Source: a virus | Length of the DNA stretch: 34,914 bases | IMG/VR virus record: IMGVR_UViG_3300028920_000178 | Coordinates: 1-34,914 of that record | Strand: one strand, 5' to 3' | Part shown: positions 26,534-33,787 of the stretch, piece after piece | Layout: the number at the start of each line of letters is the position of its first letter | How positions within the stretch are numbered: position 1 is the first letter of the stretch | Notes under the pieces: model-generated | Database searches by the model: none | What the model saw: the letters and a program-made list of their open reading frames with translations, nothing else | Told to the model about the DNA's origin: nothing | Position numbers and translations under genes: made by a program

Positions 26534-26758
26534 ATGATCTTAAAACTAGACAACATTTATAGGCAGAGCGAGGCGGCGCGATTGTTAAATATAAACCGCG
26601 CAACGTTTCAGAGCATTGTTAACAGGATGGTACAAAAAGATAATCCTGTTTATATTAATGGCCTTATCGAATTTAGCTTAGTTCAGTCTGAGGATGGGCT
26701 AACACTTGTTTATTTAGAGCCTGATGTAATAAACGCAATTAATAGCGATGTCGTTTAA
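26534..26758 (+). CDS. Small HTH/excisionase-like DNA-binding protein (74 aa)
   Basis: 74 aa. The N-terminal IYRQSEAARLLNINRATFQS, continuing IVNRMV, is a helix-turn-helix of the excisionase/MerR-type (SxxEAAxLLxxxxxTxxxxV pattern). The C-terminal part is an acidic, strand-rich tail. It probably binds DNA as a small regulator. It is the first gene behind the divergent early promoter and lies at the left edge of the cassette array, so it could control the array region or act as a recombination directionality factor. No integrase is present in the window, which makes a regulator more likely. Confidence 0.65.
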   Translation: MILKLDNIYRQSEAARLLNINRATFQSIVNRMVQKDNPVYINGLIEFSLVQSEDGLTLVYLEPDVINAINSDVV

Positions 26759-26873
26759 AAATAACGTTAAATGGATAGTAATACTAACTAAACAACGGTA
26801 TGCAAATAAGAAGCGTACACTATGAAATTTAGGAAAAGATTAATAATAGTTACTAAACTCAAATAACCGTGTG

Positions 26874-27290
26874 ATGGCAAAAATGATAACACCTTTTAGT
26901 TGTGGCACTGAAGCAATGGACTGGCTTTGTAATAATTGTGAGCAATGCAAAAGAGCCTACAAACCAAAACCAGGAGAAGAAGAATATCCAGACTTTGACG
27001 AAACAAAAAAGCTAGTTGAGCAAGGCAAGGAATGTAAATTAAAGTTTGATTTAGATTTTGCATTTGTTACAGGGGAGATGCCGGAAGAAACCGCAAAGCA
27101 GATCGGTTATAAAAATGGTAGACTTAGTTGGTCTTGTATGATGATGATAGATGATGATGGTCGCGGTTTCAATTATGATGATATAAAGCCAATTGATGAT
27201 ATACCAGATAACCAATTATGCCTACCCTTTGCAATGGATGAAATTTTGAACGGTGCGGTGGCAGAAACTTCAAGCAAAGTGAGTGTATGA
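26874..27290 (+). CDS. Cys-rich hypothetical protein, first cassette gene (138 aa)
   Basis: 138 aa from ATG 26874 (a GTG at 26871 in frame would add one residue). The N-terminal half has clustered cysteines (FSCGTEAMDWLCNNCEQCKR) and another at GKECKLKFDLDFA, with one more at LSWSCMMM, suggesting metal binding. The middle FVTGEMPEETAKQIGY is shared with small proteins of this type that I associate with Bacteroidota phages. No enzymatic motif. It is preceded by the left array border and followed by the hairpin at 27303. Confidence 0.65.
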   Translation: MAKMITPFSCGTEAMDWLCNNCEQCKRAYKPKPGEEEYPDFDETKKLVEQGKECKLKFDLDFAFVTGEMPEETAKQIGYKNGRLSWSCMMMIDDDGRGFNYDDIKPIDDIPDNQLCLPFAMDEILNGAVAETSSKVSV

Positions 27291-27302
27291 TTTTTATTTG
27301 CT

Positions 27303-27358
27303 GTTGTACGTTGGCGGCCTGTTTTCGGGTTTATAAGTTAGGCCGCTTGCGCTACAAC
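27303..27358 (+). repeat. Cassette repeat B (inverted repeat, 56 bp)
   Basis: Left arm GTTGTACG...GCGGCCT (27303-27320) pairs with AGGCCGC...GCTACAAC (27340-27358), giving two stems separated by a small internal loop. The right arm is followed by G, ATTAG, TATATG (27365-27370) and GTGTCG, the common right flank of the family. Confidence 0.7.
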
Positions 27359-27407
27359 GATTAGTATATGGTGTCGGCTGACGATAGGAAGCTGCACTAT
27401 ATACATT

Positions 27408-27421
27408 GTTACCTGCTGTAC
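27408..27421 (+). repeat. Cassette repeat C, left arm
   Basis: GTTACCTGCTGTAC, of the family form GTT...GC-TGTRC. It is preceded by GCACTATATAC (27394-27404), which is nearly the inverse of the flank after its partner arm. The partner AGTATTGCCGGTAACG is at 28172-28187, so this pair encloses the whole methyltransferase gene. Confidence 0.6.
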
Positions 27422-27441
27422 GGATTAATTAAAAACGAAAT

Positions 27442-28173
27442 ATGATTAGAAACACGATACATAAAGGGGATTGCCTTGAATTGATGCCGAAACTTATTGA
27501 TGACAACAGTATTGATATGATTTTTTGCGATTTACCTTACGGAACTACAAAATGCAAGTGGGATAGTGTAATTAACTTACCTAAATTGTGGAGCGAATAT
27601 GAAAGAATGATTAAAGATAATGGCGTTATTCTTCTATTTGCACAAAGCCCATTTGATAAGGTACTTGGAGCGAGCAACCTAAAACTACTGAAGTATGAAT
27701 GGATTTGGGAGAAGACTTCTGCCACAGGACATTTGAACGCTAAAAAAATGCCAATGAAAGCACACGAGAATTTGTTGGTTTTTTACAAGAAGCCCCCAAC
27801 TTATAACCCACAAAAAACAAGTGGACACGAAAGAAAGGTTAGTAAAGCAGAACATAAAACCAACTGCAAGGAAAGTGAGGTTTATAATAAGGGGCAGAAG
27901 TTGACGACCTATGATAGCACCGAAAGATACCCAAGAAGTGTACAGGTTTTTGCGAGCGATAAACAAAAAAGTAAATTACACCCGACTCAAAAGCCATTAT
28001 CTTTAATTGAGTATATGATACGAACTTACACTAACAAAGGAGATTTGATACTTGATAATACTTGTGGTAGCGGAACTACTGGACTTGGAGCAAAAAATCT
28101 TAAACGAGATTATATTATGATGGAGCAAGACCCTGAACATTACGAAACTGCCTGTAAAAGAGTACTAACGTAG
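27442..28173 (+). CDS. DNA methyltransferase, N6-adenine/N4-cytosine type (beta class)
   Basis: 243 aa. The catalytic motif IV comes first as DLPYGTT (residues 30-36, a DPPY variant), and the AdoMet-binding motif I last as LDNTCGSGTTGLGA (about 204-217), the beta-class order. Between them lie SFDKVLGASNLKLLKYEWIW-type segments and a Lys-rich target-recognition part. LHPTQKPLSLIEYMIRTYT is the characteristic motif X region (HPTQKP). It would methylate an amino group in a short DNA target, probably to protect phage DNA. No partner restriction enzyme is seen. The gene lies inside the arms of repeat C, and its stop TAG overlaps the right arm. Confidence 0.9.
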   Translation: MIRNTIHKGDCLELMPKLIDDNSIDMIFCDLPYGTTKCKWDSVINLPKLWSEYERMIKDNGVILLFAQSPFDKVLGASNLKLLKYEWIWEKTSATGHLNAKKMPMKAHENLLVFYKKPPTYNPQKTSGHERKVSKAEHKTNCKESEVYNKGQKLTTYDSTERYPRSVQVFASDKQKSKLHPTQKPLSLIEYMIRTYTNKGDLILDNTCGSGTTGLGAKNLKRDYIMMEQDPEHYETACKRVLT

Positions 28174-28187
28174 TATTGCCGGTAACG
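28172..28187 (+). repeat. Cassette repeat C, right arm
   Basis: AGTATTGCCGGTAACG begins in the stop codon of the methyltransferase and is complementary, with one small bulge, to 27408-27421. It is followed by TATATG (28194-28199) and GTGCGC. The same arrangement, right arm starting in a TAG stop, occurs at 30157. Confidence 0.6.
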
Positions 28188-28202
28188 TTTAATTATATGA
28201 AT

Positions 28203-28224
28203 AGTGCGCCCTCGCATACGCACT
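28203..28224 (+). repeat. Secondary hairpin of cassette right flank
   Basis: AGTGCG (28203-28208) pairs with CGCACT (28219-28224). An equivalent GTGCG...CGCAC hairpin is at 30810-30831, and GTGGCG...CGCAC at 30189-30205. It seems to be a second conserved part of the repeat family. Confidence 0.5.
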
Positions 28225-28282
28225 ACACTACATACGAGTTATAAACCTCCACGGATTGCGAGCGTGGGCAATACTTAATAAA

Positions 28283-28480
28283 ATGAGTGATTTTAAAACA
28301 AGATTAGTTGAAGAGAAAAAGCAACTTGAAGACAAAACATTGAAGCTTGCAAGCTTTACAGGTACAACAACATTTGAAGAACTGGACTTTGATAACCAGA
28401 TGTTGCTTAGAGCGCAACTAAACGCAATGAACGCCTACCTTGATATTTTGATACTGAGGATTGAAAAAGTGGGTGCGTAG
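28283..28480 (+). CDS. Small conserved phage protein (65 aa, crAss001_48-like)
   Basis: 65 aa from ATG 28283. An in-frame TTG at 28256 would add nine residues but lies inside two hairpins. The sequence MSDFKTRLVEEKKQLEDKTL, then FTGTTTFEELDFDNQMLLRA and QLNAMNAYLDILILRIE, is of a small helical type widespread in phages of many hosts; I believe databases call it crAss001_48-related. Two helices separated by a short loop are predicted, probably forming a hairpin. Function unknown. It stands alone between repeats C and D. Confidence 0.65.
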   Translation: MSDFKTRLVEEKKQLEDKTLKLASFTGTTTFEELDFDNQMLLRAQLNAMNAYLDILILRIEKVGA

Positions 28481-28523
28481 GCAAAATGTTGATACGAGCT
28501 ACAGCGCATTATTTATATAATGT

Positions 28524-28552
28524 GTTGTAGTTTCGTTTTAATGAACTACAAC
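28524..28552 (+). repeat. Cassette repeat D (short perfect hairpin)
   Basis: GTTGTAGTT (28524-28532) and AACTACAAC (28544-28552) form a perfect 9-bp stem with an 11-nt loop. A second small palindrome, CATTAT-TTAT-ATAATG (28507-28522), lies directly before it at the place of the TATATA box in other family members. Confidence 0.6.
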
Positions 28553-28598
28553 GGTTTGGGTAAGAACAGTACGACAATAACAGATAAAAATTCATTAA

Positions 28599-29291
28599 AT
28601 GAACGAATGTAAAAAAATAAAAAAAGGGGAGGGGAAATTTAGAATATTAAACCTTTACGCATGTTTAGGCGGAAACCGCTATAAGTGGGATGAAGTGGCA
28701 AAACAATTAGGAATTGAAATTGAAGTTACAGCCGTTGAACTTGACCCAGAATTAGCCAGGATGTACCGTGAGCGATTCCCAAATGATATTGTAATAATTG
28801 CAGATGCACACCAATATTTATTAGACCATTACAAAGAATATAATTTTATATGGACTTCGCCACCATGCCCGACACACACTAGAATACAAATGAGCATGCA
28901 TACGACTAGGGAAATGCAATACCCAGATATGAAGCTTTACCAAGAGATTATATTTTTAAACTCATTTTACAAAGGCAAATATGTAGTTGAAAATGTAATA
29001 CCGTATTACGAACCATTGATACCAGCTAAAAAAAGACATAGGCATTTATATTGGACTAACTTTAATTTGCCTAATGTATTGACAACACGAAAAGTATTAA
29101 TTGGCAGCGGCAAGGATGAAGTAAAAAAGCTTTGTGAATTTCACGAAATAAATGTTAATGACTACAATGGAGAGCAGCGCAAAGATAAAATTGCCAGGAA
29201 CCTTGTTGATTATGAAGCTGGAAAGACAATATTAGCAACTGCACTTGGAATTATAAAACACAGCAACCATGAAATACCGACTTTGTTCTAA
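28599..29291 (+). CDS. DNA (cytosine-5) methyltransferase
   Basis: 230 aa, shorter than typical cellular enzymes. Conserved motifs: I, ILNLYACLGGN (residues 16-25, a variant of the FxGxGG loop); acidic ribose contact VELDP (46-50); IV, SPPCPTH with nucleophile Cys90; VI, VVENV (129-133); VIII-like RHRHLYW near 151; and X-like YEAGKTILATAL near the C-terminus. It should methylate cytosine C5 in a short site. The short region between VIII and X leaves only about 50 residues for target recognition. It lies alone between repeats D and E, without a restriction partner, as expected for a phage self-protection gene. Confidence 0.85.
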   Translation: MNECKKIKKGEGKFRILNLYACLGGNRYKWDEVAKQLGIEIEVTAVELDPELARMYRERFPNDIVIIADAHQYLLDHYKEYNFIWTSPPCPTHTRIQMSMHTTREMQYPDMKLYQEIIFLNSFYKGKYVVENVIPYYEPLIPAKKRHRHLYWTNFNLPNVLTTRKVLIGSGKDEVKKLCEFHEINVNDYNGEQRKDKIARNLVDYEAGKTILATALGIIKHSNHEIPTLF

Positions 29292-29292
29292 T

Positions 29293-29331
29293 GGTTTTGA
29301 AAAAACCAAGGCGCGCGGGCTTTTTATTTTT
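29293..29331 (+). terminator. Possible terminator after C5 methyltransferase
   Basis: GGTTTT/AAAACC hairpin (29293-29307) is followed by a GC-rich stretch and a T-rich tract at 29321-29330. The stem is weak and the T tract is not adjacent, so the call is tentative. Confidence 0.3.
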
Positions 29332-29390
29332 TGGTCTAACTTGTAGAAAGTTTCATCAAAAAACTGAAATAAGTATTGTTTTTACCCGTT

Positions 29391-29477
29391 GTTAGCGTTA
29401 TGTGCCTTTTGCTTAGCTGCAACGGCTGTTCAAATTGGCACAAATGTTAAATTAAAGTTTTGGCATTAACGCTAACG
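29391..29477 (+). repeat. Cassette repeat E (87 bp)
   Basis: Left arm GTTAGCGTTATGTGCC (29391-29406), right arm GGCATTAACGCTAACG (29462-29477), with a 55-nt inner part. The inner sequence begins TTTTG, contains AAATGTTAAA and ends in TTTT before the right arm. It is similar along its length to repeats H and I. Confidence 0.75.
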
Positions 29478-29538
29478 AGATGCAAATATGAGTAGCCAAA
29501 ATTACGGAATTGAAACACTAAACTAGTAATAAAATATT

Positions 29539-29742
29539 ATGGAATTTAAAACAAAACACATTGGACATACAGGGCACTTTGCTTCAAGTATAATAGAAGT
29601 GACTGTTAGTATAGATGGTGCTGAAATAACAGAAGAAGTTACAAACCTATACTCTAAAATAGAACCTGATTTTATTACGGCATTACGAGAGCTTGCTGAT
29701 GAATTGGAAGAACAAAATAACAAGATAGCAGAAGGTGAGTAA
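29539..29742 (+). CDS. Small hypothetical cassette protein (67 aa)
   Basis: 67 aa, acidic. The N-terminal half has strands (FKTKHIGHTGHFASSIIEVT, VSIDGAEIT) and the C-terminal half is a helix (DFITALRELADELEEQNNKI). No cysteines or membrane span. I do not recognise it. It stands between repeats E and F, with an A/T-rich leader (TAATAAAATATT) before ATG, and is the only open frame of that interval. Confidence 0.55.
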   Translation: MEFKTKHIGHTGHFASSIIEVTVSIDGAEITEEVTNLYSKIEPDFITALRELADELEEQNNKIAEGE

Positions 29743-29763
29743 TTTTTGTTACTTATATTTGCT

Positions 29764-29876
29764 GTTATTAGCTGGCTGGGCTGCTTTTGCAGAGGCAGAG
29801 AGAAAGGAGCGAAGTTTTGAAGGGCTGCAACCTGAAGTATTGATTAAGTCGCCTTTCGCCCAGCTTGCTTATAACG
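29764..29876 (+). repeat. Cassette repeat F (113 bp)
   Basis: Left arm GTTATTAGCTGGCTGGGC (29764-29781) pairs with GCCCAGCTTGCTTATAAC (29858-29875). The inner part differs from E, H and I. After the right arm come GTATGG and GTGTCG (29890-29895), the common right flank. Confidence 0.7.
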
Positions 29877-29944
29877 TGCCACGTGTATGGTGTCGTGGCG
29901 TATAAATAGCACCAAATTATCAATAACATAAAAAACTTAATAAA

Positions 29945-30157
29945 ATGGAAAAAACATTAAACAACTTAGAAACTAAGCCATGCACTATACACGGTGTTGT
30001 ATGCTGTGGCGTGTTAGAAAAAATGAACTTAGGATGGATGAAACTTGAAGATGGAACTAAATGTGTGCCTTACATAAAAGGTCATTCAGATGAAGTAATG
30101 TATCGAGTAAACAACTGCCCATCCTGTGGTAAATATGTTAGGGATGTGATGATTTAG
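29945..30157 (+). CDS. Small Zn-finger-like cassette protein (70 aa)
   Basis: 70 aa. Cysteines occur as PCTIHGVVCC near residues 13-22 and as NCPSCGK near 58-64, so a small zinc site is probable. The middle is KLEDGTKCVPYIKGHSDE. No catalytic motif. The left arm of repeat G lies inside its coding sequence (29996-30010, coding CCGVL), and the right arm begins with the last base of its stop codon. Its leader ACTTAATAAAATG is identical over 13 nt to that of the 28283 gene. Confidence 0.6.
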   Translation: MEKTLNNLETKPCTIHGVVCCGVLEKMNLGWMKLEDGTKCVPYIKGHSDEVMYRVNNCPSCGKYVRDVMI

Positions 30158-30172
30158 CCATTGCATACAACG
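29996..30172 (+). repeat. Cassette repeat G (arms around coding sequence)
   Basis: Left arm GTTGTATGCTGTGGC (29996-30010) and right arm GCCATTGCATACAACG (30157-30172) are an imperfect inverted pair of the same form as repeat H. GCACTATAC precedes the left arm at 29982, and TATATG follows the right at 30179. The interval between arms is coding sequence of the 70-aa gene. Confidence 0.6.
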
Positions 30173-30247
30173 AATTGGTATATGAAATGTGGCGACTTTA
30201 CGCACGAATGATAAATTGAAAAACTAACAAGTAAAAGAAAAATAGCG

Positions 30248-30634
30248 ATGGGATACACAAAAAGAAAATGCGACTATTGCGGAAAAGAATACATGGCAGA
30301 TAACCGCAACTTAAAACGTGGGTGGGGTTTATGTTGCTCGAAAAAGTGCGCAGCGAATAAGCGTGAAAAAAGCAAGCCTAATTACAACCCAGAACGAGTT
30401 GCTGCTAATAATATAAAAAGAGCTAATTACCAAGCAGAAGCTTATGAGCGTGGGGCGAATGCCTTTGCAAGACGTAGAGGTTTTCCAGATTACGAAAGCA
30501 TGCAAGATAATATAGCGATGGATGACCCAAGTTGGGATTCGCATGGCGGTGTTGAAATTGCTATTTGCGACTGCTGCAACCTACGTGCAGATTATTGCAG
30601 ATGTGGTGAGGGTTTGGATATGGTTGATTTGTAG
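30248..30634 (+). CDS. Zinc-ribbon-like cassette protein (128 aa)
   Basis: 128 aa. The N-terminal part is a four-cysteine site: CDYCGKEY (Cys 8 and 11) and LCCSKKC near residues 29-34, in the style of NHR/HNH-associated or treble-clef zinc ribbons often seen in Bacteroidota phages. A helical, basic middle follows (NPERVAANNIKRANYQAEAY), then a second Cys cluster (CDCCNLRADYCRCGEG) near the C-terminus. It probably binds nucleic acid or protein; no nuclease residues are evident. The leader AAAAATAGCGATGG is the same as before the 30872 gene. Confidence 0.65.
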   Translation: MGYTKRKCDYCGKEYMADNRNLKRGWGLCCSKKCAANKREKSKPNYNPERVAANNIKRANYQAEAYERGANAFARRRGFPDYESMQDNIAMDDPSWDSHGGVEIAICDCCNLRADYCRCGEGLDMVDL

Positions 30635-30711
30635 CGTGGGATTTTCTTTTACGCCCAGTATAGCACGGAACTATATTAAATGAACGATAGCAGCCATTTT
30701 TTATATACCGT

Positions 30712-30792
30712 GTTGTACGCTGTGCTTTTTTTACAAGGCGTAAATGTTAAAAGTCTAGTATAATAATTAGATTTTTAGCATTGCGTACAACG
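30712..30792 (+). repeat. Cassette repeat H (81 bp)
   Basis: Left arm GTTGTACGCTGTGCT (30712-30726), right arm AGCATTGCGTACAACG (30777-30792). The inner part starts with seven T, contains AAATGTTAAA and ends with ATTTTT, as in repeats E and I. TATATACC precedes it. Afterwards come GGTATG and the GTGCG/CGCAC hairpin (30810-30831). Confidence 0.75.
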
Positions 30793-30871
30793 ACTTGCAA
30801 CATAGGTATGTGCGCCCAACCGATTACGCACAGAAGTTGAAACGAAGTACTAATTAAAAACAAAAATAGCG

Positions 30872-31096
30872 ATGGAAAAAGTTGAATTAAAAGTAGAGAG
30901 AACAATAGGAGTTAGTGGAAGTACTACCAAGTATGTGGAAGTTGAAAAACAGCAGACGCCAACAAAAACAAGGCGACTTGCAGAACTGGTATTCTGCAAT
31001 GAATACATCAACAGAGATGCTGAAATAGCAAGGTTCGACAGCCTGACCGCTGCAAAAAAGTTTGCAAACCTAAAAATATCATCAAGAATCATGTGA
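30872..31096 (+). CDS. Small hypothetical cassette protein (74 aa)
   Basis: 74 aa, basic. The N-terminal half is strand-like with alternating Val/Glu (VELKVERTIGVSGSTTKYVE), the C-terminal half helical (RDAEIARFDSLTAAKKFANL). One cysteine only. I do not recognise a family. It is the single open frame between repeats H and I, and starts after the shared AAAAATAGCGATGG leader. Confidence 0.55.
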   Translation: MEKVELKVERTIGVSGSTTKYVEVEKQQTPTKTRRLAELVFCNEYINRDAEIARFDSLTAAKKFANLKISSRIM

Positions 31097-31170
31097 GGGC
31101 TTTTGTTTTTTAATTGCCCCAATTACGCACTGAATTACCTACGAGAAAAGGCGCATTACCTATGTTGCTT

Positions 31171-31255
31171 GTTAGCAACTGTGCCTTTTTAATAGTGAGA
31201 TGAAGTACCAAGTTAGCGCAATGTTTGATATAGATTTTAGGCATTGTTGCTAACT
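31171..31255 (+). repeat. Cassette repeat I (85 bp)
   Basis: Left arm GTTAGCAACTGTGCC (31171-31185), right arm GGCATTGTTGCTAAC (31240-31254). The inner 54 nt begin TTTTTAAT, contain GCAATGTTTGA and end ATTTTA. It is followed by TATATG at 31262-31267. This is the right-hand end of the array. Confidence 0.75.
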
Positions 31256-31299
31256 ACGTTATATATGCACCTTTTGTATAACAAATTAAACCTAAACAT

Positions 31300-32959: not shown

Positions 32960-33787
32960 ATGGAACAAATTAAAATCGAAAGTGTTGAGGCAATTGAGGC
33001 TATCAACAAAAGTGAAGTCGATGTAAGTATTGCAACCGCTCAGAAATTTCCAAGGAACATTAAAAACTCTATGGCTGAATGTTTAACCGTTGCAACTATG
33101 ACAGCAGAAACGGCTCAGGAATGTTTTTACGCCTTACCAAGGGCCGGAAAAACTATTGAGGGGCCAAGTGTAAGGCTCGCCGAAATATTAGTCCACTCAT
33201 GGGGCAACATAAACGCGGGCTTTAGAATTATAGGCAACGACGGGAAAAAAATAACCGCTCAGGCTATTTGCCACGACTTACAAAAAAATGTAAGGATAAG
33301 CGCTGAAACTATGCGTAAAATTACAGATCGCCAGGGGCGTACGTTTAACGAGGATATGCAAATAATGACAGGAAACGCAGCCGCAAAAATTGCCTTTCGT
33401 AACGCTGTTTTTACTTGCATACCGAAAGCCGTAACAGCCGAGCTTCAAAGTAAAATAAAGAATGTTGCCATTGGTAGCACGAAACCAATGGAGGAGCGTA
33501 TTAAAGAGTCTATTAAATACTTTGAGGGGTTAGGAGTTACCGAAAAGGAGCTGTTAACTGTTTTAAATGTTTCCAGCACTAAAGAAATCACCGTCGATAA
33601 TCTGTTTACTTTACGAGGTTTAGCCAACTCCATTAAAGACAATTTAACAACCGTTGACGAGGCTTTCGGTCGGGTTAAGGGTAAGAGGCCAACCGACGAG
33701 AAAACGCAAAAGGAAAACGACGAATTGGCACAAAACGCGCTTGATTTTGAAAAACAACAACATGACACCAAAAAAAGTAAGTTATAA
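32960..33787 (+). CDS. Conserved phage recombination protein, candidate single-strand annealing protein
   Basis: 275 aa. The segments YALPRAGKTIEGPSVRLAEI, GKKITAQAICHDLQKNVRIS, MRKITDRQGRTFNEDMQIM and TGNAAAKIAFRNAVFTCIPK belong to a phage family seen in many hosts and usually left unnamed. The C-terminal part (KYFEGLGVTEKELLTVLNVS, then a coiled acidic/basic tail) resembles that of RecT/Erf-type proteins with a helical extension. Its position directly after a RecE-like exonuclease makes it the best candidate for the annealing partner. The role is inferred from context. It has its own promoter and overlaps the next gene by 26 nt. Confidence 0.65.
   Translation: MEQIKIESVEAIEAINKSEVDVSIATAQKFPRNIKNSMAECLTVATMTAETAQECFYALPRAGKTIEGPSVRLAEILVHSWGNINAGFRIIGNDGKKITAQAICHDLQKNVRISAETMRKITDRQGRTFNEDMQIMTGNAAAKIAFRNAVFTCIPKAVTAELQSKIKNVAIGSTKPMEERIKESIKYFEGLGVTEKELLTVLNVSSTKEITVDNLFTLRGLANSIKDNLTTVDEAFGRVKGKRPTDEKTQKENDELAQNALDFEKQQHDTKKSKL

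Follow-up and report, generated by a model that had tools for sequence, protein, structure and literature searches.

The stretch of DNA analysed here, called the window, is a 34.9-kb virus record (IMG/VR IMGVR_UViG_3300028920_000178; 34,914 nt). It belongs to a virus of Bacteroidota bacteria, and protein matches to phages of Flavobacterium, Tenacibaculum, Polaribacter and Cellulophaga suggest a host among such bacteria. Between 26.8 and 31.3 kb, eight small plus-strand genes stand among inverted repeats. An initial annotation of the window, made from the sequence alone, had described GTT...AAC repeat elements with single genes between them in about this place, and they are present there. Every repeat arm was found to be one half of a junction (J) of ~40 nt, which occurs in 17 copies with cores from 26794 to 31252 and in strict a, b, a, b alternation. 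The a-type junction has the sequence RGCATTNNNNNN-AACG-nTTnGTATATGnnGTGnCGG, and the b-type is its reverse complement with regular differences. The AAC/GTT core is constant in 17/17 junctions, and an Rfam search of the window elements matched no family.

The left halves of the junctions are complementary across the intervals from b to a and the right halves across those from a to b, and this pairing persists even across a 700-nt gene. The mean local score of true neighbours was 10.9 for left halves, against 6.0 for all other pairs, and 13.0 for right halves, against 6.2; no random pairing in 20,000 reached either observed neighbour score. Next to GTT/AAC, the arms pair perfectly over 6 nt at five loci (28524/28552, 29391/29476, 29996/30171, 30712/30791 and 31171/31254) and imperfectly at two (27303/27358 and 29764/29875). 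This bears out the compensatory arm differences seen at the outset, and the chained pairing agrees with the view that the structure is kept over the primary sequence. The pairing scheme given then was correct for the left halves, which form the GTT...AAC series, but it overlooked the pairing of the right halves. Because each junction pairs to both sides, the array consists of two interlocked hairpin series, AAC...GTT (the order of attC, as in J3-J4) and GTT...AAC, and to call the elements the reverse of attC was therefore mistaken.

In integrons, a cassette begins with sequence complementary to the R'' box at its own end, and within the attC site the L'' arm pairs with the L' arm; therefore the junctions of an array pair alternately with both neighbours. 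The junctions of the window do so as well (R' against its own R''), forming a chain of pairings as found in an integron cassette array, in line with the likeness to attC arrays noticed before. Cutting at the a-junctions yields eight units with 1,1,1,1,1,1,1,1 genes (about 2% by chance, by counting), as expected of the single-gene cassettes first proposed. Cutting at the b-junctions was the first idea; it was dropped because units would hold no gene (two cases) or two genes (two cases). The genes of units V1, V3, V4, V5, V7 and V8 lie in an AAC...GTT interval with a short GTT...AAC hairpin alongside, and those of V2 (methyltransferase) and V6 (Cys-rich) lie in a GTT...AAC interval with a short AAC...GTT hairpin, which is the ordinary attC order.

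The short hairpins folded modestly better than shuffles, with z of about -1.0 to -3.8 for the b-to-a hairpins and -1.4 for J3-J4. In 8/8 a-to-b pairs, AACG in the a-junction meets AACA in the b-junction, which gives a G.T pair on the plus strand. Folding of the plus strand was better than that of the minus strand in 16/16 hairpins, by 0.1 to 4.6 kcal/mol; the advantage is slight in several of them, and a bulged T and directional G.T pairs are present.

Table 1. Junctions and unit genes of the array, in window coordinates.
Feature	Position	Core	Strand	Remark
J1, a-type, left edge of array	26782..26820	AAC 26794	+	right half pairs with J2
V1 gene, 139 amino acids (aa), without Pfam or PHROG family	26871..27290		+	
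J2, b-type	27279..27320	GTT 27303	+	pairs with J1 and J3
J3, a-type	27344..27378	AAC 27356	+	pairing analysis
J3-J4 attC-like hairpin AAC...GTT, loop TGACGATAGGAA	27356..27410		+	homologues in nine further phage contigs, P12002L among them
J4, b-type	27390..27424	GTT 27408	+	pairs with J3 and J5
V2 gene, N4/N6 DNA methyltransferase (PF01555)	27442..28173		+	homologous cassette in phage contig L118
J5, a-type, left edge of V3 unit common to L157	28172..28210	AAC 28184	+	
V3 gene, crAss001_48-related (PF21825)	28283..28480		+	unrelated open reading frame (ORF) in L157 inside equal shell
J6, b-type	28500..28537	GTT 28524	+	pairing analysis
J7, a-type, right edge of V3 unit common to L157	28540..28574	AAC 28550	+	
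V4 gene, C5 cytosine DNA methylase-like (PF00145)	28599..29291		+	
J8, b-type	29367..29405	GTT 29391	+	pairing analysis
J9, a-type	29460..29498	AAC 29474	+	pairing analysis
V5 gene, 67 aa, no assigned function	29539..29742		+	
J10, b-type	29740..29782	GTT 29764	+	pairing analysis
J11, a-type	29859..29899	AAC 29873	+	pairing analysis
J12, b-type, inside ORF 29945-30157	29973..30010	GTT 29996	+	pairing analysis
V6 gene, small Cys-rich protein, start codon uncertain	29945..30157		+	
J13, a-type	30156..30195	AAC 30169	+	pairing analysis
V7 gene, 128 aa, N-terminal zinc-finger region like PHROG unknowns and HNH proteins	30248..30634		+	
J14, b-type	30688..30726	GTT 30712	+	pairing analysis
J15, a-type	30776..30817	AAC 30789	+	pairing analysis
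V8 gene, 74 aa, PHROG unknown	30872..31096		+	
J16, b-type	31147..31186	GTT 31171	+	pairing analysis
J17, a-type, right edge of array, right half partnerless	31239..31272	AAC 31252	+	

A pattern built from the loop common to the window and Polaribacter phage P12002L led to nine phage contigs, P12002L included. The cassette of a 214-aa gene was 99.6% identical over 758 bp between contigs L118 and L121, while the 300 nt on either side of it showed random identity (28% and 30%). Its right edge is TAACG|, and its left edge lies at or ≤12 nt before AACGG, an imprecise position because both contigs happen to share ATTGTGCCTAACGG. The copy in contig L116 has 87% identity and an equal right edge. The homologue of the V2 unit in L118 has 77-82% identity, and the similarity ends right after GGTAAC. 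The V3 unit matches L157 from TAACG (J5) to AACGGTT (J7); the two are near identical over ~105 nt at the start and ~85 nt at the end, the ORF between these stretches is unrelated, and so are both outer flanks. Mobile units of one gene, bounded at G|TT (AA|C on the complementary strand), were thus observed, at a resolution of a few bases around AACG, and the comparison of phage contigs indicates that the cassette units move.

The outcomes that would have spoken against the initial annotation were looked for in part, and what was seen did not refute it. Covariation greatly exceeds chance, at least ten other phage contigs as well as bacterial chromosomes carry further copies, and units whose edges fall at the AAC/G core are common to contigs with otherwise unrelated neighbours. 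Searches through the nuclease-like protein, the phosphoesterase-like protein and DNA found no close relatives of the window phage. Viral contigs with relatives of the C5 methylase or the 128-aa protein had no detectable junctions, and Tenacibaculum phage Larrie, which has the methyltransferase (85% aa identity to the V2 protein), had no element of the junction kind. A strict consensus pattern gave three matches in viral contigs, all without arms, and they were judged to be chance.

For the chromosomes, a sample of 395 genomes was drawn evenly over the lineages of the phylum. A looser junction pattern gave matches barely above a reversed control. Two of its matches, in genome G190, were real and opened the chromosomal lead, and one in G009 was rejected as lying inside a coding region without a GTT arm. 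A sequence model of the a-junction (R1), trained on the window and G190 junctions together, found 22 matches in G190, in three clusters and all on one strand. The largest cluster spans 3,225,669-3,292,635, and at its edge a tyrosine recombinase of 406 aa ends at 3,224,919. In five further genomes of the G190 family, the strand opposite the recombinase has R1 matches ~100 bp beyond it, and several matches in these relatives sit at contig ends, as repetitive arrays would give. Past the recombinase stop, six genomes of the family have an A+T-rich conserved stretch and then a GTT core at 107-122 nt. As R1 had been trained partly on G190 junctions, a window-only matrix was made from eight window a-junctions so that circularity was avoided; in five genomes, it ranked the recombinase-proximal site 1/542, 1/597, 3/715, 1/708 and 3/772 among AAC positions.

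As a prospective check, a second set of recombinases was collected by protein similarity only. GTT stood at +89 to +119 in 14 loci; L164-L166, L168 and L178 had no convincing site, and two more loci were unreadable. Within close pairs of this set, the 40 nt leading up to GTT are 95-100% identical, and similarity falls off on the far side: identity is 98% left of GTT vs 3% right for L173/L174, 98% vs 36% for L173/L180 and 100% (last 40 nt) vs 36% for L169/L170, and the earlier pair G053/G516 had 99/114 left vs 10/21 right. These alignments place the divergence in the attI-like sites at the G|TT insertion point of integrons.

The recombinase neighbourhoods of G198 and G080 had no R1 match. By eye, an AAACGTT site was seen past the 455-aa enzyme of G080 (L103/L104), and G198 (L101/L102) has an insertion-less relative of the recombinase that contains an internal stop and lacks an array site in its vicinity. 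Within the G190 array, a transfer RNA-like stretch (L068:5420-5560, minus strand, with a GAAGGAAGTGGCGCAATTGG...GGTTCGAGTCTC-like end) is the sole cargo between two junctions, and a 1.6-kb duplication of 96.8% identity (C1:3268234-3269862 and 3272820-3274449) begins, at its left edge, with CACAACACCGTGTTTATG beside a junction core.

The G190 recombinase scored 211 bits with the integron integrase family TIGR02249, below the cut-off of 265. Among solved proteins IntI4 is its best relative, in an alignment that falls into two pieces and leaves out the IntI-specific stretch. Aligned with IntI1 and IntI4, it proved to lack the IntI-specific insertion in the catalytic domain, and the array enzymes lack the stretch containing ALERKYPRAGHSWPWFWVF. 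They carry an extra N-terminal domain of ~100 aa and end in SPLD as IntI1 does. In a tree with IntI1 of plasmid R388 (the one IntI used) and XerC and XerD of G190 as references, seven array enzymes and IntI1 formed one group (100/98), apart from XerC/XerD. None of the nine array genomes has a recombinase over the IntI cut-off, and in each of them the array enzyme is the best or among the best matches to the integron integrase family. An integrase gene with an adjacent attI, the platform of an integron, is present in the chromosomes with like sites and missing from the phage record. A classical IntI over the family cut-off was found in 105/395 sampled genomes. IntegronFinder 2.0 reported a single complete Bacteroidetes integron (PMC9024848), a count far exceeded by our sample, which may be rich in Ignavibacteria-like groups.

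Regarding the genes of the array, the start of the crAss001_48-like gene was corrected to ATG 28283, and the start of V6 is uncertain because its ORF overlaps J12. The V6 protein matched no Pfam or PHROG family above chance, and its CxxC pattern suggests a zinc-ribbon-like product. Directly left of the array (26534-26758) there is a small helix-turn-helix protein with weak excisionase-like matches, and just right of it (32960-33787) a protein resembling a phage recombination protein.

Several observations weigh against an integron-type origin of the array. The canonical R boxes RYYYAAC/GTTRRRY are mostly not seen in the window, where only AAC/GTTR is constant; judged by eye, 0/8 interior a-junctions (J3-J17) fit RYYYAAC strictly, and GCCTAAC of P12002L and L118 fits it. 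The plus-strand folding preference is small for the b-to-a hairpins. As the initial annotation had noted, there is no integrase in the phage (PF00589 unmatched at E<=1 in a record that may be a fragment), and no relatives of the array enzyme were found in viral contigs. Branches in the tree of IntI sequences are long, and with a single IntI reference the grouping with IntI needs a larger tree. In the second recombinase set the window matrix scored only modestly above local background, so the likeness of those sites is drawn mainly from GTT position and divergence.

The units might instead be mobilised in some host by a classical IntI that has the insertion, and the phage array would then be an ordinary attC cluster. 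IntI1 was able in E. coli to recombine one site of P12002L, although which one could not be checked, into attI1 (PMC9892861), and the classical genes are found in more than a quarter of the sample, as noted above. The 108 kb surrounding 30 classical IntI loci from the phylum sample gave no match to the junction model, however, and the attI regions of classical loci differ from the attI-like sites of the array enzymes, beside which the model does match. We therefore regard this explanation as unlikely. Homologous recombination between conserved hairpin shells, for instance by phage single-strand annealing with the gene at 32960-33787, would account for the near identical shell ends and wholly different gene of V3 and L157, the hairpins being only terminators or regulatory elements. 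But the unit edges lie at the AAC|G core without homology between left and right flanks, terminators need no chained pairing on both sides, and chromosomal arrays open with like sites at a constant distance from a recombinase, which leaves this explanation improbable. Each gene-bearing interval has inverted ends, as would mobile elements with terminal inverted repeats (like miniature inverted-repeat transposable elements) served by a transposase in trans. Such an origin is very doubtful: no pattern of target-site duplication was seen, separate insertions would not make each junction pair with both neighbours, and the units abut directly at common cores.

Taken together, it is likely that the phage array consists of integron-type gene cassettes without an integrase of their own, moved in trans by an insertion-less integron-type recombinase of the host. 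This explanation brings together the chain of alternating pairings, the single gene in each unit, the sharing of units whose edges fall at the core, the like sites next to a recombinase and the divergence at G|TT. A unit would run from one a-type core (AAC|G) to the next and hold one gene and one complete b-type junction. In the single-stranded unit, presumably the substrate, the a and b junctions would pair over their full length into an attC-like imperfect hairpin, and a tyrosine recombinase would cut the AAC|G core (C-G|TT on the other strand), so that units could be excised and inserted singly with pairing on both sides retained. The likeliest enzyme is the IntI-grouping recombinase of Bacteroidota hosts that directly precedes like chromosomal sites; its position and the likeness of the sites suggest that it may act on the phage sites, and the supply of a recombinase in trans, as first proposed, is probable. 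The units may benefit the phage: their genes, several of which encode DNA methyltransferases, probably counter restriction by the host. Since like sites adjoin an unusual integron-type enzyme on bacterial chromosomes, a common pool of cassettes probably supplies genes to phages and bacteria alike, and methyltransferase-rich phage arrays point to a shared pool of anti-restriction genes. If this is true, it would explain the origin of cassettes in Bacteroidota phages.

We also lean, with less confidence, towards a separate integron lineage of Bacteroidota, shared with phages, that has an insertion-less recombinase from the IntI clade as well as an attI and a family of folded sites peculiar to it. 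In its cassettes the gene may stand to either side of the folded site, and genes would be replaceable inside a constant shell. Integrons would then be frequent in a phylum from which searches based on the insertion recover few. In the V3/L157 pair a single shell occurs with two different genes, and this offers a direct entry to how a gene joins its recombination site.

A phage array of this kind has already been published: P12002L has a cluster of attC sites lacking an integrase (CALIN) (PMC9892861), so the system that had been suggested to be unnamed is not wholly so. The likely source of the cassettes appears to be new; that publication names no Bacteroidota enzyme. P12002L resembles the window as a Bacteroidota phage with methyltransferase cargo, complementary cassette ends and no integrase, and its sites, with TATATG/TATATAC arms and the loop GACGATAGGAA, are homologous to J3-J4. 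In P12002L the gene lies in the GTT...AAC interval, whereas 6/8 window genes lie in the AAC...GTT interval, inside the would-be attC loop. Four methyltransferase-type genes and a Mom-like modification gene were seen as cassettes in P12002L (L071:29248-32126, 37305-38816), in at least three cases between complementary GTT...AAC ends. For the integron-like subgroup of tyrosine recombinases, the IntI insertion has been called essential for integron function (PMC8138268), whereas enzymes without it head cassette arrays here; if this is true, they may represent either the ancestral state or a different way of dealing with folded sites.

By strict definition, the array is not a classical IntI integron, having no phage integrase, relaxed R boxes and, as its likely enzyme, one without the IntI insertion. 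Like the class 1 integron of R388 (L125), it has single-gene units in which the cassette start is complementary to the end, and the chromosomal arrays share with that type an attI-like site adjoining the recombinase, divergence at G|TT and an enzyme that groups with IntI1 and has the common SPLD end. Unlike it, the enzyme lacks the IntI-specific insertion and has the additional N-terminal domain, the attI is found beyond the 3' end of the gene for the recombinase, R boxes are relaxed and genes may occur on either side of the folded site. In the chromosomal integron of Treponema, the attI is likewise placed beyond the integrase gene at its 3' end, as in the arrays described here, whereas its IntI is of the classical type.

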